From NCBI GenBank assembly GCA_033819885.1, contig JAQYUZ010000006.1, forward strand, positions 310,001 through 374,000: a stretch of DNA of 64,000 bases, given 5' to 3'. Made by a program: the position numbers and the translations under genes. This DNA is from Microbotryomycetes sp. JL201. Taxonomy: Eukaryota; Basidiomycota; Microbotryomycetes. The notes under the pieces are model-generated. The model worked only from the letters and a program-made list of their open reading frames with translations, was not told the DNA's origin and made no database searches. Position 1 is the stretch's first letter. Every line of letters begins with the position of its first letter. Positions 5,633-50,704 of the stretch are shown here, piece after piece.

Positions 5633-7523
5633 TCAGTCAGATCCTTCATTTTGCTGGCCTGTCAGCTCGGTCGTCTCGTCCTGCTTGTAAAGATCCCAGA
5701 AAAGTGCTTGCTTGACACGCGACCGATTGGCCTGGAGCTGGACGAGAACGTCCTTGTGAGTGGCATGTCCGGACCGAATAAACTGCAGGTATGTGGGCCG
5801 GTGTTAGCTGCACGCGAGAATATCAAAGCCTTGATAGTGGAATGGCGGAATCTCAAAGCCTTGACAGTGCAGTAGCGGAAAAGCTCGCTCACTGTGGAAG
5901 TCATTGCCGGAGAACCCACGTATATGTCTGACAAGACGTCGCCGTTCTCTGCAAACAAGTCACGGTGCGCTTGCTGCAGAGCTGAACCTGCAAACGACAC
6001 CCATTCGTTTTGCCCCTTGACAAACTTTCCTATTGTGGCTTCAGACAAGACAAAGCCACCGAGTGTTGTACGGTCCAGGCAATCTGCAAGTGCACGTCAG
6101 CGCGCAATTTGACTGCTATCAAGAGGACGCGCCTCTACAATTGACACGGTACACGCCAATTTGTTTTTTGGTGAGCTCCCGCACTTCTCCTTGCCAATCC
6201 ATACAGACTTCAGTATAGCCCATATCATCGAGAACAGAGTGTTGTGTGTAGTAGAGCGTTTTGGGAACAGCATCTTGACCGCCTGCAACCGTATGCACGT
6301 CAAACTTGTGATAGACCGTGCCTCTGACCAAGCTTTGATCTTGAGCTTTCGCCATCTGAAGCACTTCACCGAACGCTGAGCCAAGTGTCGCTTCCGCCGT
6401 GCCATTTTTGTCTCTCATCAGGTTGAGAATATGCACTGGCCCAGAGTACTTGTCTAGCAGTGCATGAAAATGCAGCTTGAGTGGCTCGACAGAATCGTCC
6501 AGAGGCTCGTGAATCGTCACATCTGGACCGCCCTGGAAAGACAGCTTTTCTTTCCACAGTAAAGGAACGCTGGCGCGAGCTTGCACAAATGACATGGTCT
6601 TGTTGTTGGATTCGTACCTCAAGATCGTCTCGGTCTCGGCGGCATTGGAACAGTTCCCGTACAAGTCAATGCCACGTTTGCAGAAACGCGGACCGGCTCT
6701 AGCCCAGCGTCGTCGCGAGATGACTTTCAGTAGAACCATTTCATTACCGTGCTTGACGACTCGACTGCCGAAATAGCCCTGACAAATAGGCACGGCAAAC
6801 GAACGCTTGTCAAACTCGTGGCGCAGACTTGGGTCGAGAGCGTCCATAATGCGAAAGAGAGGCGACAGCAAATACAAGTTCCAGATGAACTGGGGGTCGG
6901 AATTAATGTGGCGCGTGTCGACTCCAGCGTGCGTGTTCGAAACCGGCGATGACTGGAACGCCGTGGCGTTGCCGCGAGAAGCTGGCTGGAGAGCCTTGAG
7001 GGCGTCTTGAACAAGACTCGCCTGGTCCGACAAGTTCAAAGTTGCATCCCACATGTTGCTCGCGGAGAAGAAGAATTCTGACGTGCTCAAAAACTTTGCA
7101 AAGTTGCCCATGTCGACTTGGGTTTGTGAAGGGCTGGAAGATGGAGTAAGTGTCTGAGAGTAACGCCGTCCCGTCTCGATCGAGTAAAAGATGACTTCTT
7201 TGACAAGTTCGGCGCCCCAAGTTGAAGTAGAAGCAGGCTGTGCTTCTCGGATCAGAACGGCAAACATTTCTATCGGTAGAGCCGACCGATCAGTCCAGTC
7301 CGGTCCAAGCTGAAGAACCGCCCTACATACCTTTGAGGTGAAGAAACACTCCAATGCACGCGACGACCGCCTCTGCTTGGTCTGCATCGAGCTCGTCCAG
7401 TTCGTTGAGTGGCGAAAAGTGGGCATTCAGCACTGGTTCTCCCTTTTCCTCTGCGTGCAAGAACAGACAATAGCCATTGTCTTCGAGAATGACAGCGTTG
7501 GGCAACGCGTGCACGAGCATCAT
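5633..7523 (-). CDS. Sac-domain phosphoinositide phosphatase
   Basis: Predicted to hydrolyse phosphoinositide monophosphates on membranes. The body of the Sac domain is one long exon from about 7270 to 6133, with ARAGPRFCKRGIDLYGN, NAAETETILRYE, SFVQARASVPLLW and HILNLMRDKNGTAE in the usual order. The catalytic loop falls across an intron: exon end RVNCR plus DCLDRTTLGGFV, giving the CX5R(T) signature only if intron 6132-6084 is spliced from a GC donor. A later exon gives FIRSGHATHKDVLVQLQANR and the frame ends at 5633. An N-terminal exon (ATG at 7523, MMLVHALPNAVILEDNGY) precedes the Sac domain by one intron. The protein is shorter than Sac1 and Fig4 and no C-terminal membrane anchor is visible, so it is probably a soluble or peripheral Sac family member. 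The arginine inside the loop (CRDC) is unusual. Confidence 0.8.
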
Positions 7524-34935: not shown

Positions 34936-37900
34936 CTAGTGTCGTCGACGCTCTTGTCGAACGCGCTCGCGTTCGGCCTTGATCAGCCGTTCGAGTTCGG
35001 CAACGACTTGTGTCATCGGAGGCCGGTGAACAGCTTCTTGAGACCACATGGTGGTCATCAGGTCGACAATCTCTCCACCCCACACTCGCCGAAGGGACGC
35101 GGTCGACGGCCTCAAATTTTTGTGGCCGACTTGATCGTAAATAGCCTGCCAGTTGCCCCAAAGTTAGCACGCGCCCGTTTGACAGAAATCTATGCACTGA
35201 CATGCTCGTTCATCCCTTCGAACGGATACCGCTTGACTGCTTGATGCCATTGCAGCGCTTCCCAAAAGACGAGGCCAACAGAATAGACGTCCACCTTTTC
35301 ATTGTATCGAGGATGGGGCACCCAGAGCTCGGGCGCCTGCCAATTGACCGTGCCCACAAGAGATCTAATCATTGCTCTTTTCGAGTTCTTTATCTACAGT
35401 CACCTTTGTTAGCGCAATCCACGTCAAGCCACATGATCAGCACGCTCACCTTGGCCAACCCAAAGTCTGCCAACTTAGCGACGCCGTTCGCCGTGATCAA
35501 GATGTTGGACGATTTGATATCTCGGTGAATGATCGTTGGAGTGCGCGTGTGCAAGTACCCGAGACCGCGAGCAATCCCGAGCAAGATCTCGAGCATGTTG
35601 AGGAAAGGCGGAGGCTCGACCGCTCGGATGTAGTCAAACAAGTCGCCGTTGGCACAGAGCTCGGTCACAATCATGACGGGCACCGTACTCGGCTCTTTTG
35701 GAATCGACACGCCAATGAAGTGCACAATGTTCGGATGACGCAAGTCTCTGAGCAGGCCGAGCTCTTTGATGTCCATCTCTGTTAAATGACCCCGGATATC
35801 GGCGATAGCTATCGTCTTCTTGCGATAGACACCTTTGTAGACATCCTGAAGAACAGAAGACGGTCAGGCATTCGCTGTAACAACCGCCATAGCTTGCTTT
35901 ACCTTGAAGCCACCAGAGCCAACTTTTTCGAGCTTGGTCAATTTCTCAGGCGCGATCTCCTTGTCTTGCAGCTGTAAACTCTCGAGATCGAGCGCGTTGA
36001 CTTCCTCCTGCTCGTCCTCCTTTGTCTGCTGTGGAGATTTGGGCTTTTCCGGACTCGGCGAGTGGCCTTCTCGCATGAGCAGGGGCGTGAGCATACCACG
36101 GCGAGGCTTTGGTGACGCGGCTGCACGTAGTGCTTCGGTCTTCGTCTCTGCGCGGGCAGTCATGACAGAAGCGTTCGACACGGTCGAATCACACGATGCA
36201 GTGGATGCATCCGAGTCGAGCTGCTCATGAGTTTCACGCTGTACAAGCTCGTGATTAATTGAGGTCGAAGGAAAGCGTCAAGTGAGCGACCACTCGGCTC
36301 ACCCATTGCAGCAGTGCTTGCACTAGCTCCTTTTTCGTGCCATCAAGCTCAACGCCGCGTTCCTCGCACAGACGCAGCAACTCGTCCCGTCGGTACCGGA
36401 GCAAGGTTTTCGACGTTGCAGTCATCACATCGACTTCGTCATCTGCCCGGAACGCCGTCAATGCCCGATCGTGCTTTCATACTAGCCCACAAGACTCACC
36501 ATTGTCGTCCATATCGTTGCTCTCATCGTCAACCTCAACGGATTGCTCGTTCATTTCTTCTGGCTCCTCTTCGATGAGTGGAACGACCTTGCCGTTTCTC
36601 AATTGACGTGGGCCTCTGAAAGCGGCTGTCAGCGTTTGGTTGTCTTCCTTGTCAGAGAGCTCGTCCGCCGATTCGTCCCCGCTCTCGTCATCTGCATCGG
36701 ATGGAGTCGCCGTTGAGACTTGACGTTTCACTGTGCGCCGAGGAGTGATATCCGATACTGCCGTGTTCGTTTCATCCAAGTCCATGTTGAGGTCGTCCGC
36801 CGACACCGAGTCTCCACTCGACGAGTCTTCGATCGGAGTTTGAACGATCCGCGCGGTTGCCTGGCTTTTGGCCGCCCTCGACGGTCTCGGCGATAGGGCT
36901 GAAGACGATGTCGCATTTGTTCTGCGCGTGCGATACGCGATCGGTGTGAATGAAGGTAGCCGATTCGGCACCGTGTTCTCCGTCTCAAGCTCGTCGAGCG
37001 CTTCAAGATGGTGGCGTCTGTGTCGGAAGCGAGGTGACTTATGTTCTTGTTGTAGCACTGACTGAAGGCGCTTGCCGATCTCATTCTCATCAAATTCTGT
37101 GGTCACTTCGAGCAGGGAAGACCTCCGTCTGGGACGTAGTCGGATAGCCGATACAGGCTTGCTGGACTCGTTGAGCGTAGCAGCGGCGAAGACGTCCGTG
37201 AGTGACTCGCTCCTGGTTCGCATGTGTCTCGGCGCGCGACCTGGTTGATTCAAGTGCTTATCTTCACCGTCACCGGCAGCCATTGAACTCCGTGAGCTAC
37301 GCGTCCGACCGAGTCGGCGGTGAGGGCTTGGCGCTGGTGATGCTTCATGGCTCGTCAACGGCCGAGGCGAGTCCGAATCCGAATCATCCTCGTCAGTGTC
37401 GACTGCGTAGTTAGTTGTCGAATTTGACCTTGCTCGCACAATCCCTTTAGCGAGCGCAGCTTTGCTAAGTGAACCTGTCGCGGCGAGGGTGCGATGGGTG
37501 GCGTGGGCGTAAAGTCGTGCAAGCTCTGAGCGAGTCAGACTGCACAGCTCGCGCGCGCTCGCCTCGTACATGCAGTAATCATCTGAAATAATGCCAATCG
37601 TCAGCCGCGAAGCACGATGCGCGGTCGCGATGGCTTACCTTGCTCTGGCTGTTCATCTGCCATAGTTGCCGAACTCGAGTGTGCGGTGCTCGAGCTCGAG
37701 TTCCGTCGGCTCGTGCGCCTGCTTGAGCCATCTCGATCGTTTCCAGGTCGGGAACGTCTCCGCTTGGCTTGCGAGCCATCCTTGTCGTGTTCCGAGCTGC
37801 TGTCGCGGCGTGAGGTCGAGCCTCTGCCGGGTCGCTTGCGCTTGGACGACGGCAGGCTCTCCTCTGCCTCGTCATCTGCAAGACCAAGTAGAGCACCACT

Positions 37901-38512
37901 CATGCGCCGAGCTACCTTGTGACCGATTGGGGCCGTCGCGCCTGCTGTAGCCGGTTCGTCATTCTCGGCGTCACGTGAGCGCTTGACGAGCATTGTCGCA
38001 GACGGCCGAGCGACGGTGTGATTTAGTGGCAGTGTACCCAAAACAGTCTTGGTGGTTTGTCGAGTCGTCTTCGGTTGGGTTCTGAGAGATCCGACGACTT
38101 TTGCTGCAGCGAACTGCCCGTGTTGAATGATGGTCGACTGCGCAGCCAAAGACCGGCGTCGAGCAAGCGCAGGGGCGCCGCCGTGATCAGTGTTTGCTGT
38201 CAGATTGGCGAATGTCAGGTGAACCCTGTTCTTCGCTGCAGTATCGTGGATGCAGGGCAGCGAGCTTCGGCGCAAGTTGAGCGAAGAGCGTGACGAGTCG
38301 TGACGAGCGTCCGGCGCTGCAAGAGCTGTCGAGTCGCAATAGGGTTGGATCTGCAATGCTGTGTGCTTGCCGTGCTCAAGTCGCTGTTGCTTGTAGAGAT
38401 GGGCCGGCAGCGGCTCGACCGAGCTGCCGGGAACTGGCGCGTGCACACGTGAGCGCTTCGAAGCAGGCTCTGGGGCGATCGGCCTCGTCCTCAAAGTGGA
38501 CTCGGATGGCAT
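34936..38512 (-). CDS. SAP-domain protein with C-terminal TKL-type kinase domain
   Basis: Seven exons in phase: 38512-37639, 37582-36500, 36442-36303, 36238-35903, 35845-35450, 35387-35202, 35145-34936 (3,225 nt, 1,074 aa). The first ~650 residues are disordered, Arg/Ser-rich and nuclear-like (SSKRKRPGRGSTSRRDSSS). A SAP-type helix-turn-helix follows (LLRYRRDELLRLCEERG, then GTKKELVQALLQW), a DNA/chromatin-binding module. The C-terminal ~300 residues are a TKL-like kinase fold: LEKVGSGGFK-DVYKG, KELGLLRDLRHPNIVHFIG, IIHRDIKSSNILI, LADFGLAK, GTVNWQAPELW, VDVYSVGLVFWEAL and RPPMTQVVAELERL. The beta3 motif reads TIAIADI, with Ala (about residue 826) where the ATP-anchoring Lys is expected, while Glu of helix C, HRD and DFG are present. 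Domain identities are confident; catalytic competence is uncertain. ATG 38512 is the first clear one, but the frame is open further upstream. Confidence 0.85.
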
Positions 38513-46512: not shown

Positions 46513-49500
46513 TCACTTGCCGGCGTAATACTCGCGAGCGTCATGTAACAAGCCAGCTTCGACGCCAATCCAGGAAGCTTCAACTTCCTGCCAAACTGTT
46601 TCTCTGCGCGATGGGATGATAGACTTGACCTAAACGGCCACACAGAGCGTTTTATTATCTCGAGACAGATTGCGACAGTCGATCGGTTTCTCACCTGCAA
46701 GTCAAATGCTGAAGACACGGGGCGATGATCTGATACATTGACCTCCCATCGCCTGTACTGACCCTTGACCGGCAGAATTTTGTCTGCTCGGTCCGCGCCT
46801 GCAGTCCGGATCGCCATGAGTTGCACGAAAATGTACCACACGAAAGCCAGAACGAGACTCACGGTGAAGAATGCGGTCACACCATGCAGGGATACGCTTC
46901 TTCGCAGAGCTGTCATACTGATCTGTTCCACGATCGTATCTGAGAAACATTTTTTTAAGCTCTCACGTGCCACGTGTTCTTACTCAAGCTGACTCACTTG
47001 TACGTGGGCGCGAACGTGATGGCAGGCTCTTTGAACGACTTGAGTCTGAAAGTCGGGTTTGTGGCGAGACCTTTATTGAGCTGATCCAGCGGCAGAAGAT
47101 CTGTGAACGTGCCGTTCTCGACAGCGGCGACGACATTGTCTCGTCGAGCGTCAATCCGATAGTTTAAATCGCCAGAGAGAATGCAAAGCTCGTGATCGAA
47201 GACGGCACTGCCATCGCTGCCGAGTGCGTACGCGCCAGGCGAGGTTGAGCCGAGTCCGACAAACGAAGAGCGGTCTTCGAGGATGTCGACCAAATCTTGG
47301 TCACGCTCTCGACGATGTGACTGGCCGGCAGCCTGTCTCGAAACGTTTGATTAAATCACAGAACACGTCAAAAACCCTCATCGGAGCGCACGCACCAGAT
47401 GACAGTTCACGAAACAGATGGACGTATCGTCGACAACGAAGCGAGTTAAAATGGCACCTTTATTCCCGTAGCGTCCACCCATGCCAGTCTTGACTGTGAG
47501 CTTCGCGGCGTCTCGCAAACCAGCCGCCTCGGTCGACTTCACAAACACGCAGCTGAACAGCTGCTCGATAGACTACTATCAGCAAACGCGCGACTGCAAC
47601 TCGGCATCTGAACGCGAACAAACCCCAATCATGTCGGCGACATGCACGACAGTGTACGGCGTTTCTGGTGGCATGGCTAACCGCACTGCTTGCACCAGCC
47701 TGTCATGCCAGGCGCGGTAGCTGGACGAGACTCCATCCGAGAAACCGCCGTTTTGCTTCTTGCCAATCAACATTGACTCTGAGACAAGCGGATAAGCGAG
47801 ACCATCAATAAATCGTAATTCTCACGTACTGGCAGTCAGCTTTTTGTCTTCAAGATCGATCTGCAACCAATTGTAAGCCTGAATTTGGCATTCCACCCGC
47901 GAACGACTTGCGCTTACCATCTCTTGGAAACCGAAGGAAATAATGTCAGGACTGTCTACTGACGACAAGACGTCGTGCAAGAAATTCAGGTTGTCGGCAG
48001 TACCGACGAGGTCCGTAGGCTTGGCAGCGTCGATGTTCCAGGTAACGCACAGCGCGCGGATCGTTCGATACGTGCAGAATTCGGGTTGACGCAGCATAAG
48101 TTCGGCGTCTGCGATAGGTGTCAACAACATGTACGCCATTTTGAATGCAAAGCGGGCCTCACCGAGCCAATCGTCGCGGAGCAAACCATCCCAGAGCTGG
48201 ATGGTCATCTCGCTACCAAGGGAGGCGACTTGAAGGACTCCATCCTGTAATGCTGATTATCGTCAGTCAAGAGACAGAGAACCCGCCAATCAGAGGCTTG
48301 CCGTGCGAAGCGTGGACGGATCCACGACTATTTTGAGAATAGGATCTTTGTGTGCCTTCCAAGCTTTGTGAACGGTCCATGGCTCTTGTGAGACATTGTA
48401 TGCATAAATATAGCCTGTCCGGAAGCCCGCCCACAGCAATTTTCCAACGCCTGCGAGCGCCGTGACCATAAACGTGGACACACGCTGCACTCGGACGCAC
48501 TCGTACGAAGTACGATCCCAGACTGAGATATACCCGTTGTCATGTCCAAGGAAAGCGAAGTGTTCTTGAGCCGGGACAATAGCACTCGCGGTCACCGCGC
48601 CAACCGGCCCAGATGCATCGGTAACGAGCTGGGGTCGCGGCAATAGCGAGAACGTCCGCGCCCCGGTTGGGTCATACACTCGCACTTGCGGTGAGCGAGA
48701 TGCCAGGGCGGACGCAGAGTGCTTCGTTGCCGGCCCCGACGATGTCCACAAGTCAGAACCCAACAATCCAGCAAAGTTTTGCTTGTCGGCTGTCCGTTGC
48801 GATTGGTGCGGACCGTTCAGATTGGGAGCGTCATGCGAGTCAGACGTTCCCCAGGTGAACACTTTACCTGCCTCGTCCAGAGTGACCATCATACGTCCGG
48901 AGCGAAAGATGGCGCTGACTGACGAAACATGAATGTGAGGCCTGGAGTGCGTGACTTTGGCTAGATGTGTATCGATCTCGAACAAATGTCCATCTTTTGT
49001 CCCGACCCAGGCGTATCTGTCATCGTCCTGAGGCGCGTCGATGCTGCCAGCTCGAAACTCGACTGCTGTGATCTTAGTTTCGCCCGCAGGTGGCATGATG
49101 GCTTGTGGCGAGCCGCCCGATGTCGACCAAATGTATACATGGTGCTGACCTGTCACTAGCCGCTTGCCACGAACCGCAAAGCTGTGAACCTGACCGGGCG
49201 AGTGAATCGGTTTGCGGTTTCGCAGAGCAGGCGGTCGTCGATTGGCAAACGTCGCATCCGGAAACTCCTGGGACCGGTCGACTGGAGCGCCTTCCTCGTC
49301 GTCGTCTGAGGAACCAGCCTCACCCGATGCGGTCAGCGTGTTGACTCTGGGGCGCACTGGTGTGACAGACACGTTGACGGCTCGCGAGGGTGGCGGGGGC
49401 GGAGTCCAGACACTTTCGCCTGCTGCATGCGCCTCTTTTGCTTCCGAGCTTGTAATCTCTGTATGCGGTCGTGCTGGGATGGCAGGCTTGCTTGAGATGA

Positions 49501-50428
49501 TGGGTTGCCGCGACGGCATTATGCAAGGCGAAGGGCTTCGACGAGGTGGATGTGGCACGATCCCATTCTCCGGGGAAGATGACAGCGCGGCCGAATCCGA
49601 CTCGGCCCGCAACCGTCCTGCAGGAATTGGCGTGGGTGCCAACAGACCATGGTTGTAAACCGAAGTCGTGGCGGCGATCGTTGCCGCTCGCAACGGAATC
49701 GGCGGCGGCGCTCGGAATGAGCTCGTCGGATCCAGTGTCGGTCTCGGAGGTATGATTGGAGCAGGTGGTTTCGCGGAGGGTAGCGGTCGCGCATGATCAT
49801 GATCGACCGGCTCAGGACTAGCTGACCGCGCAAAGGATGAAATGGTGTCGGTTGAGCTGGCGATGGATTTCGCAGACGAGGTTGTTTGCGTTCGGCGGGG
49901 AATTGGTGGAGACTGAGATGACAACCGGCTAGCCGGCTGTTTGTCTCCTAGCTCGCCACTGCAAGCGTCCTGGGCTCGAGCCGTGAGAAGGTCGCCGCTG
50001 TCTTCGCTGGCTTGGCTGACATCAGATGCTCGCTGTGGAGGATGTGGGGGAGGTCGGCGGCTGGCACTGGACGCTGTACGAAACAGTTGCGAGTCGGATT
50101 CGGAGGGCGTGACGTTTGAGCTCGGCGGTGCGGCCGAAGCGGCCCTGAAGCGTGGTTCGGGTCGCGGCGGAGGTGTCTTCCTTGCAGGTTTGGAAGATGT
50201 GTCACTTGAGCTGCTTGATGTTGTCGCTTTCGGGCTTGATGCTTCAACTTCGGCGCTCGGTTGAGCTTCGGTCTTTGGCTTGCTCGCGACAAGCGATGCT
50301 GGCTTGAGCTTGACTGCATGCTTTGGAGGCGGAGCAACGCTCGGATTTGGTGCCTGCGTCGTCGACAACTGCTCGAAGCGAGCGCGCAAGTCCTGGACGG
50401 ACGAAGGCTCAGGCGGCGGTGAGCTCAT
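46513..50428 (-). CDS. WD40-repeat inositol polyphosphate 5-phosphatase
   Basis: Removes the 5-phosphate from inositol lipids or polyphosphates. The first exon (ATG at 50428 to about 48,300) encodes a ~360-residue Pro/Ser-rich disordered head with poly-Pro SH3-ligand-like stretches (KTPPPRPEPRF, WTPPPPPSRAV), then a beta-propeller: VHSFAVRGKRLVTGQHHVYIW, RYAWVGTKDGHLFEID, HFAFLGHDNGYISVWD, KLLWAGFRTGYIYAYNV, and next-exon MTIQLWDGLLRDDWL. Smaller exons encode the phosphatase: CVTWNIDAAKP, DIISFGFQEMV, SGDLNYRIDARRDN, KEPAITFAPTYK, KKRIPAWCDRIL and VSDHRPVSSAFD, ending LLHDAREYYAGK at 46513. The arrangement of a WD40 head and 5-phosphatase tail is known from fungi and plants. About nine exons; the internal boundaries of the phosphatase part are approximate. 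Confidence 0.9.
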
Positions 50429-50704
50429 CGCGCCGGAGCGGCAGGCATTCACTCAGCCCGTCCAGCACGCCCGTTCCGCCGCTGAACTCCTATTGGTATT
50501 GGTGTAGATGCGCCGGCTCAATTGCGCTGATGCAGGGCGGAGGAAGAACGGGCGTAGCCGGATGCGCGGTCACTTATTCGACAATATTTGTCATTTCATC
50601 TATTTGTTCACTGCATCATTCCATCCCGAGGCTACAAGGGCGGGCACCTACTCCGCAGATTGGTACGGACACATATGAGCCCACATCAGAGACATTTAAA
50701 ACGC

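Follow-up and report, generated by a model that had tools for sequence, protein, structure and literature searches.

Can a protein kinase that carries alanine in place of the VAIK lysine still be an active enzyme, and what would it do when joined in one polypeptide to a SAP-like module? This question is raised by a gene on the minus strand of a 64,000-nucleotide stretch of DNA from Microbotryomycetes sp. JL201 (the window, 54.75% GC), which belongs to a genome of 17.15 Mb in 92 contigs. An earlier note on this DNA described the product as a fusion of a disordered nuclear head, a SAP module and a TKL-type kinase that either binds nucleotide differently, as WNK does, or signals as a pseudokinase.

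One gene for the SAP-like module and the kinase

Spliced translation of seven exons, from the start ATG at window position 38512 to the stop TAG at 34936-34938, gives a protein of 1076 residues (Table 1). The six introns are all of the GT..AG type, measure 56-64 nt and keep the reading frame. Each contains a branch-site-like YTRAY motif, the copy closest to the acceptor lying 15-18 nt away from it; when the intron cores were shuffled, all six carried the motif in one of 2000 draws. The coordinates, the strand and the joining of the SAP and kinase parts in a single gene had thus been read correctly, and the translation confirmed that exons 3, 4 and 5 are in phase with canonical splice sites. 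An artefact of the gene model could in principle take two forms: the SAP and kinase parts could be separate transcripts, or the alanine could come from a sequence error. We regard either as very improbable, given the six frame-keeping introns with their branch-site-like motifs and the nature of the codons concerned. The GCC codon of Ala826, within an exon, agrees with neither Lys codon at any of its three positions, and turning the AAG codon of Lys811 into a Gly codon would take at least two base changes, so that neither swap can be explained by a single base error. An alternative exon restoring the VAIK lysine, which the earlier note had considered, is unlikely as well, because Ala826 is located inside exon 5 and the flanking introns are only 57 and 56 nt long.

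Table 1. Positions of the gene and its features in the window, with the basis of each assignment.
Feature	Window position	Strand	Basis or remark
Whole gene	34936..38512	(-)	7 exons, 1076 aa; canonical splice sites, frame, branch-site-like motifs
Exons 1-7	38512-37639, 37582-36500, 36442-36303, 36238-35903, 35845-35450, 35393-35202, 35145-34936	(-)	
Basic clusters KRKRPGR and KRRRSR, residues about 224-256	37745..37843	(-)	Candidate nuclear localisation signals (putative function)
Exon 2 start, residues about 293-354	37395..37580	(-)	SAP-like helix order, low-confidence model
SAP-like module, residues about 666-699	36303..36404	(-)	For: Pfam profile, structure model, Foldseek; against: PDB sequence search
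Kinase domain, residues 800-1058	34993..35938	(-)	Spans introns 4, 5 and 6; Pfam, PDB search, alignment
Lys811 codon AAG	35903..35905	(-)	Final codon in exon 4; stands at the third glycine and aligns to the WNK1 beta2 lysine
Ala826 codon GCC	35801..35803	(-)	VAIK lysine position
Glu839	35762..35764	(-)	Helix-C glutamate by alignment
HRD motif, 918-920	35519..35527	(-)	Spliced translation
DFG motif, 938-940	35459..35467	(-)	Spliced translation
APE motif, 963-965	35328..35336	(-)	Spliced translation

A lysine in the glycine loop and an alanine in beta3

The kinase domain matches PF07714 over nearly the full profile length (144.7 bits, E 4.1e-42) and PF00069 nearly end to end (E 7.2e-40). Its key residues are G806, G808, K811, A826, E839, H918-R919-D920, K922, N925, D938-F939-G940 and the APE motif. 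Measured by what defines the protein kinase superfamily, the domain is of full length and contains HRD, DFG and APE, and it lacks the VAIK lysine of beta3: the sequence of this strand is TIAIADI, in which Ala826 takes the place of that lysine. The earlier description of this alanine, and of HRD, DFG, APE and the helix-C Glu as intact, proved accurate, and Lys922 and Asn925 are kept too. The glycine loop reads GSGGFKDVYKG, Lys811 standing in place of the third glycine. The catalytic loop reads HRDIKSSN, which we take to indicate Ser/Thr specificity.

The alignment with WNK1 places Lys811 on the beta2 lysine of that kinase in an ungapped block (GSGGFKDVYKG and GRGSFKTVYKG, respectively), and Ala826 on the Cys of its VAWC (VEVAWCEL in the PDB entry). 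The GGFK lysine, one of the candidate replacements named earlier, therefore coincides with the lysine that does this work in WNK1. Two reviews state that WNK1 Lys233 (printed once as Lys223) substitutes from beta2 for the beta3 lysine and treat it as essential; according to one of them, its mutation abolishes activity (PMC10211241, PMC4718504). The two proteins are alike in lacking the beta3 Lys, in having Lys at the third-glycine/beta2 place and in keeping the helix-C Glu and HRD. A comparable move of the lysine, to the glycine loop/beta2, is reported for POMK, which, unlike the protein studied here, is a sugar kinase without canonical HRD, DFG and helix-C Glu (PMC10211241, PMC12599244). Three other lysines, Lys815, Lys820 and Lys821, were set aside as replacements, since we judge from the alignment that they lie either beyond the loop or within the turn between beta2 and beta3.

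From the sequence and its likeness to WNK1, our preferred reading, held with moderate confidence, is that the product is a Ser/Thr kinase, probably nuclear and tethered to DNA, that is catalytically competent by means of a displaced lysine. Lys811, at the start of beta2, would reach into the ATP site and take over the role of the missing VAIK lysine, forming a pair with the helix-C residue Glu839 in the manner of the WNK1 beta2 lysine, and Asp920 and Asp938 would act as usual. The SAP-like module would tether the enzyme on DNA or RNA, where it may act on nearby chromatin proteins. Of the two options that the earlier note had offered, the WNK-like one fits better than the pseudokinase, because the GGFK lysine meets the WNK1 beta2 lysine without a gap.

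A pseudokinase, in which phosphotransfer is lost, Lys811 is incidental and the protein serves as a chromatin scaffold, seems to us possible but rather unlikely. It would account for the loss of the VAIK lysine, and it would not be out of place among TKL kinases, the group with the most pseudokinases, mainly from plants and fungi, according to one review (PMC10211241). A precedent of a kind is reported from Phytophthora infestans: PITG_14137 likewise combines a kinase domain with a chromatin-related part, but its partner is a histone-lysine methyltransferase and not a SAP module, and its kinase is described as inactive in the CMGC section of that study (PMC3019232). What speaks against such a loss is that HRD, DFG, APE, the helix-C Glu, the HRDxK lysine and the Asn are all kept, and that the lone lost residue is offset by a lysine at the very place that replaces the VAIK lysine in WNK1.

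Both positions were compared with other kinases of the same genome. The set comprised 54 rows, the window gene included, and drew on 77 loci that overlap in part (L001-L080, leaving out L009-L011, the gene itself). These rows are a sample and not the whole kinome, the genome search reporting 153 kinase matches; the loci were chosen from kinase-family or kinase-query hits and by pattern search, some mostly for a start near the beginning of the profile, and the group labels of the rows (CDK, CAMK, STE, AGC, TKL) are our own reading. No fewer than two rows, L024 and the second of L004, have the look of chance matches, and each of the two sites was unreadable in 14 rows. Lysine occupies the beta3 site in 39 of the 39 other readable rows, in a control that leans toward Lys and makes Lys-less kinases easier to miss, because its profile was seeded from 17 own kinases (fragments L040 and L047 among them) picked by a pattern requiring the beta3 Lys. 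The third-glycine site holds 31 G, 5 S, 2 A, 1 T and 0 K in its 39 other readable rows, which bounds the frequency of Lys there below roughly 8% by the rule of three. The joint loss at beta3 and gain of Lys at the third glycine are suggestive but no proof; Lys811 may be incidental, as the site varies (non-Gly in 8/39 rows, one of them probably a chance row). Searched across the genome, the pattern G.G.FK.V, to which intron-split motifs such as that of the window gene are invisible, gave 13 matches and its reversed form 9; none of the nine matches translated was a kinase by eye, and the others were three further matches and a poly-G one (L027).

Two side observations came from the same survey. 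Loci L071 (contig C6) and L075 (contig C89) have near-alike kinase N-lobes (GRGGSGFVLRCVRRKDGLEYAIK / GSGGFGFVLKCVRRIDGLECAVK) and are perhaps a lineage-specific pair. On contig C21, two kinase matches of equal score are present in opposite orientation (G000:C21:14551-14913 (-) and G000:C21:203940-204302 (+)), which might reflect an inverted duplication, whether of the genome or of its assembly.

Kinship of the kinase domain

If the lysine is displaced as in WNK1, it could have been inherited rather than acquired independently. The assignment to TKL was therefore weighed against membership of a divergent fungal branch of the WNK lineage, a reading that concerns origin and not activity and so overlaps with the preferred one. 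The PDB search with the kinase domain returned an EGFR chain in the top row with two domains at 62.3 bits each, followed as leading single-domain matches by the TKL kinases MAP3K12 (DLK; 121 bits) and CTR1 (117.8 bits), and lower by a Src-Abl ancestor (114.7 bits), B-raf (109.1 bits) and WNK1 (103.5 bits). WNK1 thus scores below MAP3K12 and CTR1 and near B-raf, and the order of these last two flips in pairwise blastp, where DLK has 126 bits, WNK1 111 bits (35% identity across 219 residues) and B-raf 108 bits. With the N-lobe alone, the tyrosine kinase ABL1 came first and no WNK appeared among the best 60 of 357 matches; with the catalytic-loop half, CTR1 came first and WNK1 stood close after MAP3K12 and MLT. 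DLK also shares a short helix-C region with the window protein, whereas in the sequences compared MAP3K12, CTR1 and B-raf keep both the VAIK lysine and the third-position glycine. Basidiomycete TKL proteins with GGFKDV and VAIS- or VAIA-type beta3 strands probably exist and provide a lead.

Descent from the WNK lineage gains from the identity to WNK1 just given, from its lead over B-raf in blastp, and from a genome search with WNK1 as the query, in which the best match was exon 5 of the window gene (59.7 bits, the next 51.5 bits), in a search run exon by exon where exon size affects the scores. A 13-kinase tree, computed after masking the two trait residues, had no starred branch, and the AU test rejected neither a clade of the window gene with WNK1 (p 0.409) nor one with TKL kinases (p 0.283); the gene itself was weakly joined (64/52) to a long-branched CAMK-like row of its own genome, a join flagged as suspect. 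On the other side stand the higher scores of DLK and CTR1, the presence of the LHxRxPxIxHRD stretch in CTR1 too, and differences from WNK1 in the motifs: Ala and not Cys in beta3, DFG and not DLG, GTVNWQAPE and not GTPEFMAPE in the activation segment; the SAP-like module also sets the protein apart from WNK1. On balance we consider a WNK origin improbable and TKL the better, plausible guess for the group. Of the earlier TKL-type label, the higher ranking of MAP3K12 and CTR1 over WNK1 stands in its favour, while the N-lobe search is led by ABL1 and the tree settles nothing.

A search of the own genome (E up to 0.001) turned up no close paralogue, the next best match being a kinase on contig C27 (43% over 109 residues) that keeps AVKEV intact; a six-sequence FastTree grouping of the window gene with this kinase (0.838) was not relied on. 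No relative turned up in the viral and prokaryotic contig collections, which contain no fungi, a result that says nothing about rarity. Another kinase lineage, the fungi-specific FslK, is related to tyrosine kinases; its ATP-binding residues are described as conserved, unlike here, additional domains are given for 16 of 241 members, and the study found none in the Ustilaginomycotina, the Pucciniomycotina and the two Cryptococcus species that it covered (PMC3937382).

The SAP-like module, the N-terminal head and their meaning

The SAP-like module is the softest part of the observation. The earlier note had located a SAP module at about residues 664-698; a SAP-like match does lie nearly there (Table 1), but its PF02037 score of 16.3 bits in the whole protein, or 22.8 bits for the cut-out segment, is under the Pfam gathering cut-off of 23.9 bits. 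A genome-wide search with the SAP profile gave six matches with E up to 1, among which it ranks third (21.7 bits, E 0.0037). The PDB sequence search with the segment found nothing convincing: the best match, a kinesin-like motor protein, had E 0.036, and the SAP domain of Hcc-1 had E 0.16. A single-sequence AlphaFold model of the SAP exon has three helices and a mean pLDDT of 83.8. With this model, Foldseek returned 68 matches at E up to 10, none under 0.54, with endonuclease VII, a mycoplasma ATPase and Rho in the top rows; the best 50 of the 68 include five entries titled SAP domain (1zrj, 2rno, 2do1, 1h1j, 9q80), as well as DEK, PIAS-1, Ku, Tho1, FAN1 and Rho entries. The segment is SAP-like in sequence, may have the SAP fold, and is probably a DNA-binding module.

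Ser, Arg and Ala are abundant over residues 1-650, a stretch that also contains basic runs, including those at residues 224 and 250; upstream of residue 800 there are 14 S/T-P sites. No convincing Pfam family was found in residues 1-353, where no match was better than E 0.13. The composition and the basic clusters suggest that the protein is probably nuclear, and the labels nuclear and disordered given earlier to this head should be read as predictions on the same basis. The start of exon 2 was modelled with a short helix, a long one and then another (mean pLDDT 52.3), and possibly represents a second, degenerate SAP module.

Neither a SAP-kinase fusion nor a fungal kinase with a displaced lysine was encountered among the matches listed or in the portions seen of the open-access literature (including PMC7586955, PMC2838846, PMC5052723 and PMC1420674). 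As a tentative and broader proposal, which we hold with less than even confidence, the catalytic lysine may have been relocated to beta2 independently once more, besides WNK and POMK, and become fixed in a fungal TKL lineage together with a SAP module; this would constitute a family of chromatin-bound 'no-lysine' kinases whose members have gone unnoticed under the label of generic or dead TKL kinases. If Lys811 does work as envisaged, the WNK answer to a lost VAIK lysine either evolved another time or extends by descent to this fungus, and either origin would help in asking how catalytic lysines move. Kinome surveys that use the VAIK site to declare a kinase dead would then call for caution, although a lysine in subdomain I is already accepted by at least one survey (PMC3019232). 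Tethered to DNA, such a kinase would be an uncommon component of nuclear signalling.

Other coding regions were noticed on the minus strand of the window. The stretch 60778-61839 matches arylamine N-acetyltransferase (PF00797, 47.1 bits), the best stretch covering 25 profile positions; a long open reading frame at 48290-50452 has a partial CDC20/Fizzy WD40 match (PF24807) that at 43.9 bits does not reach the cut-off of 200; and 6119-7426 encodes a SacI homology (phosphoinositide phosphatase) domain (E 6e-51).
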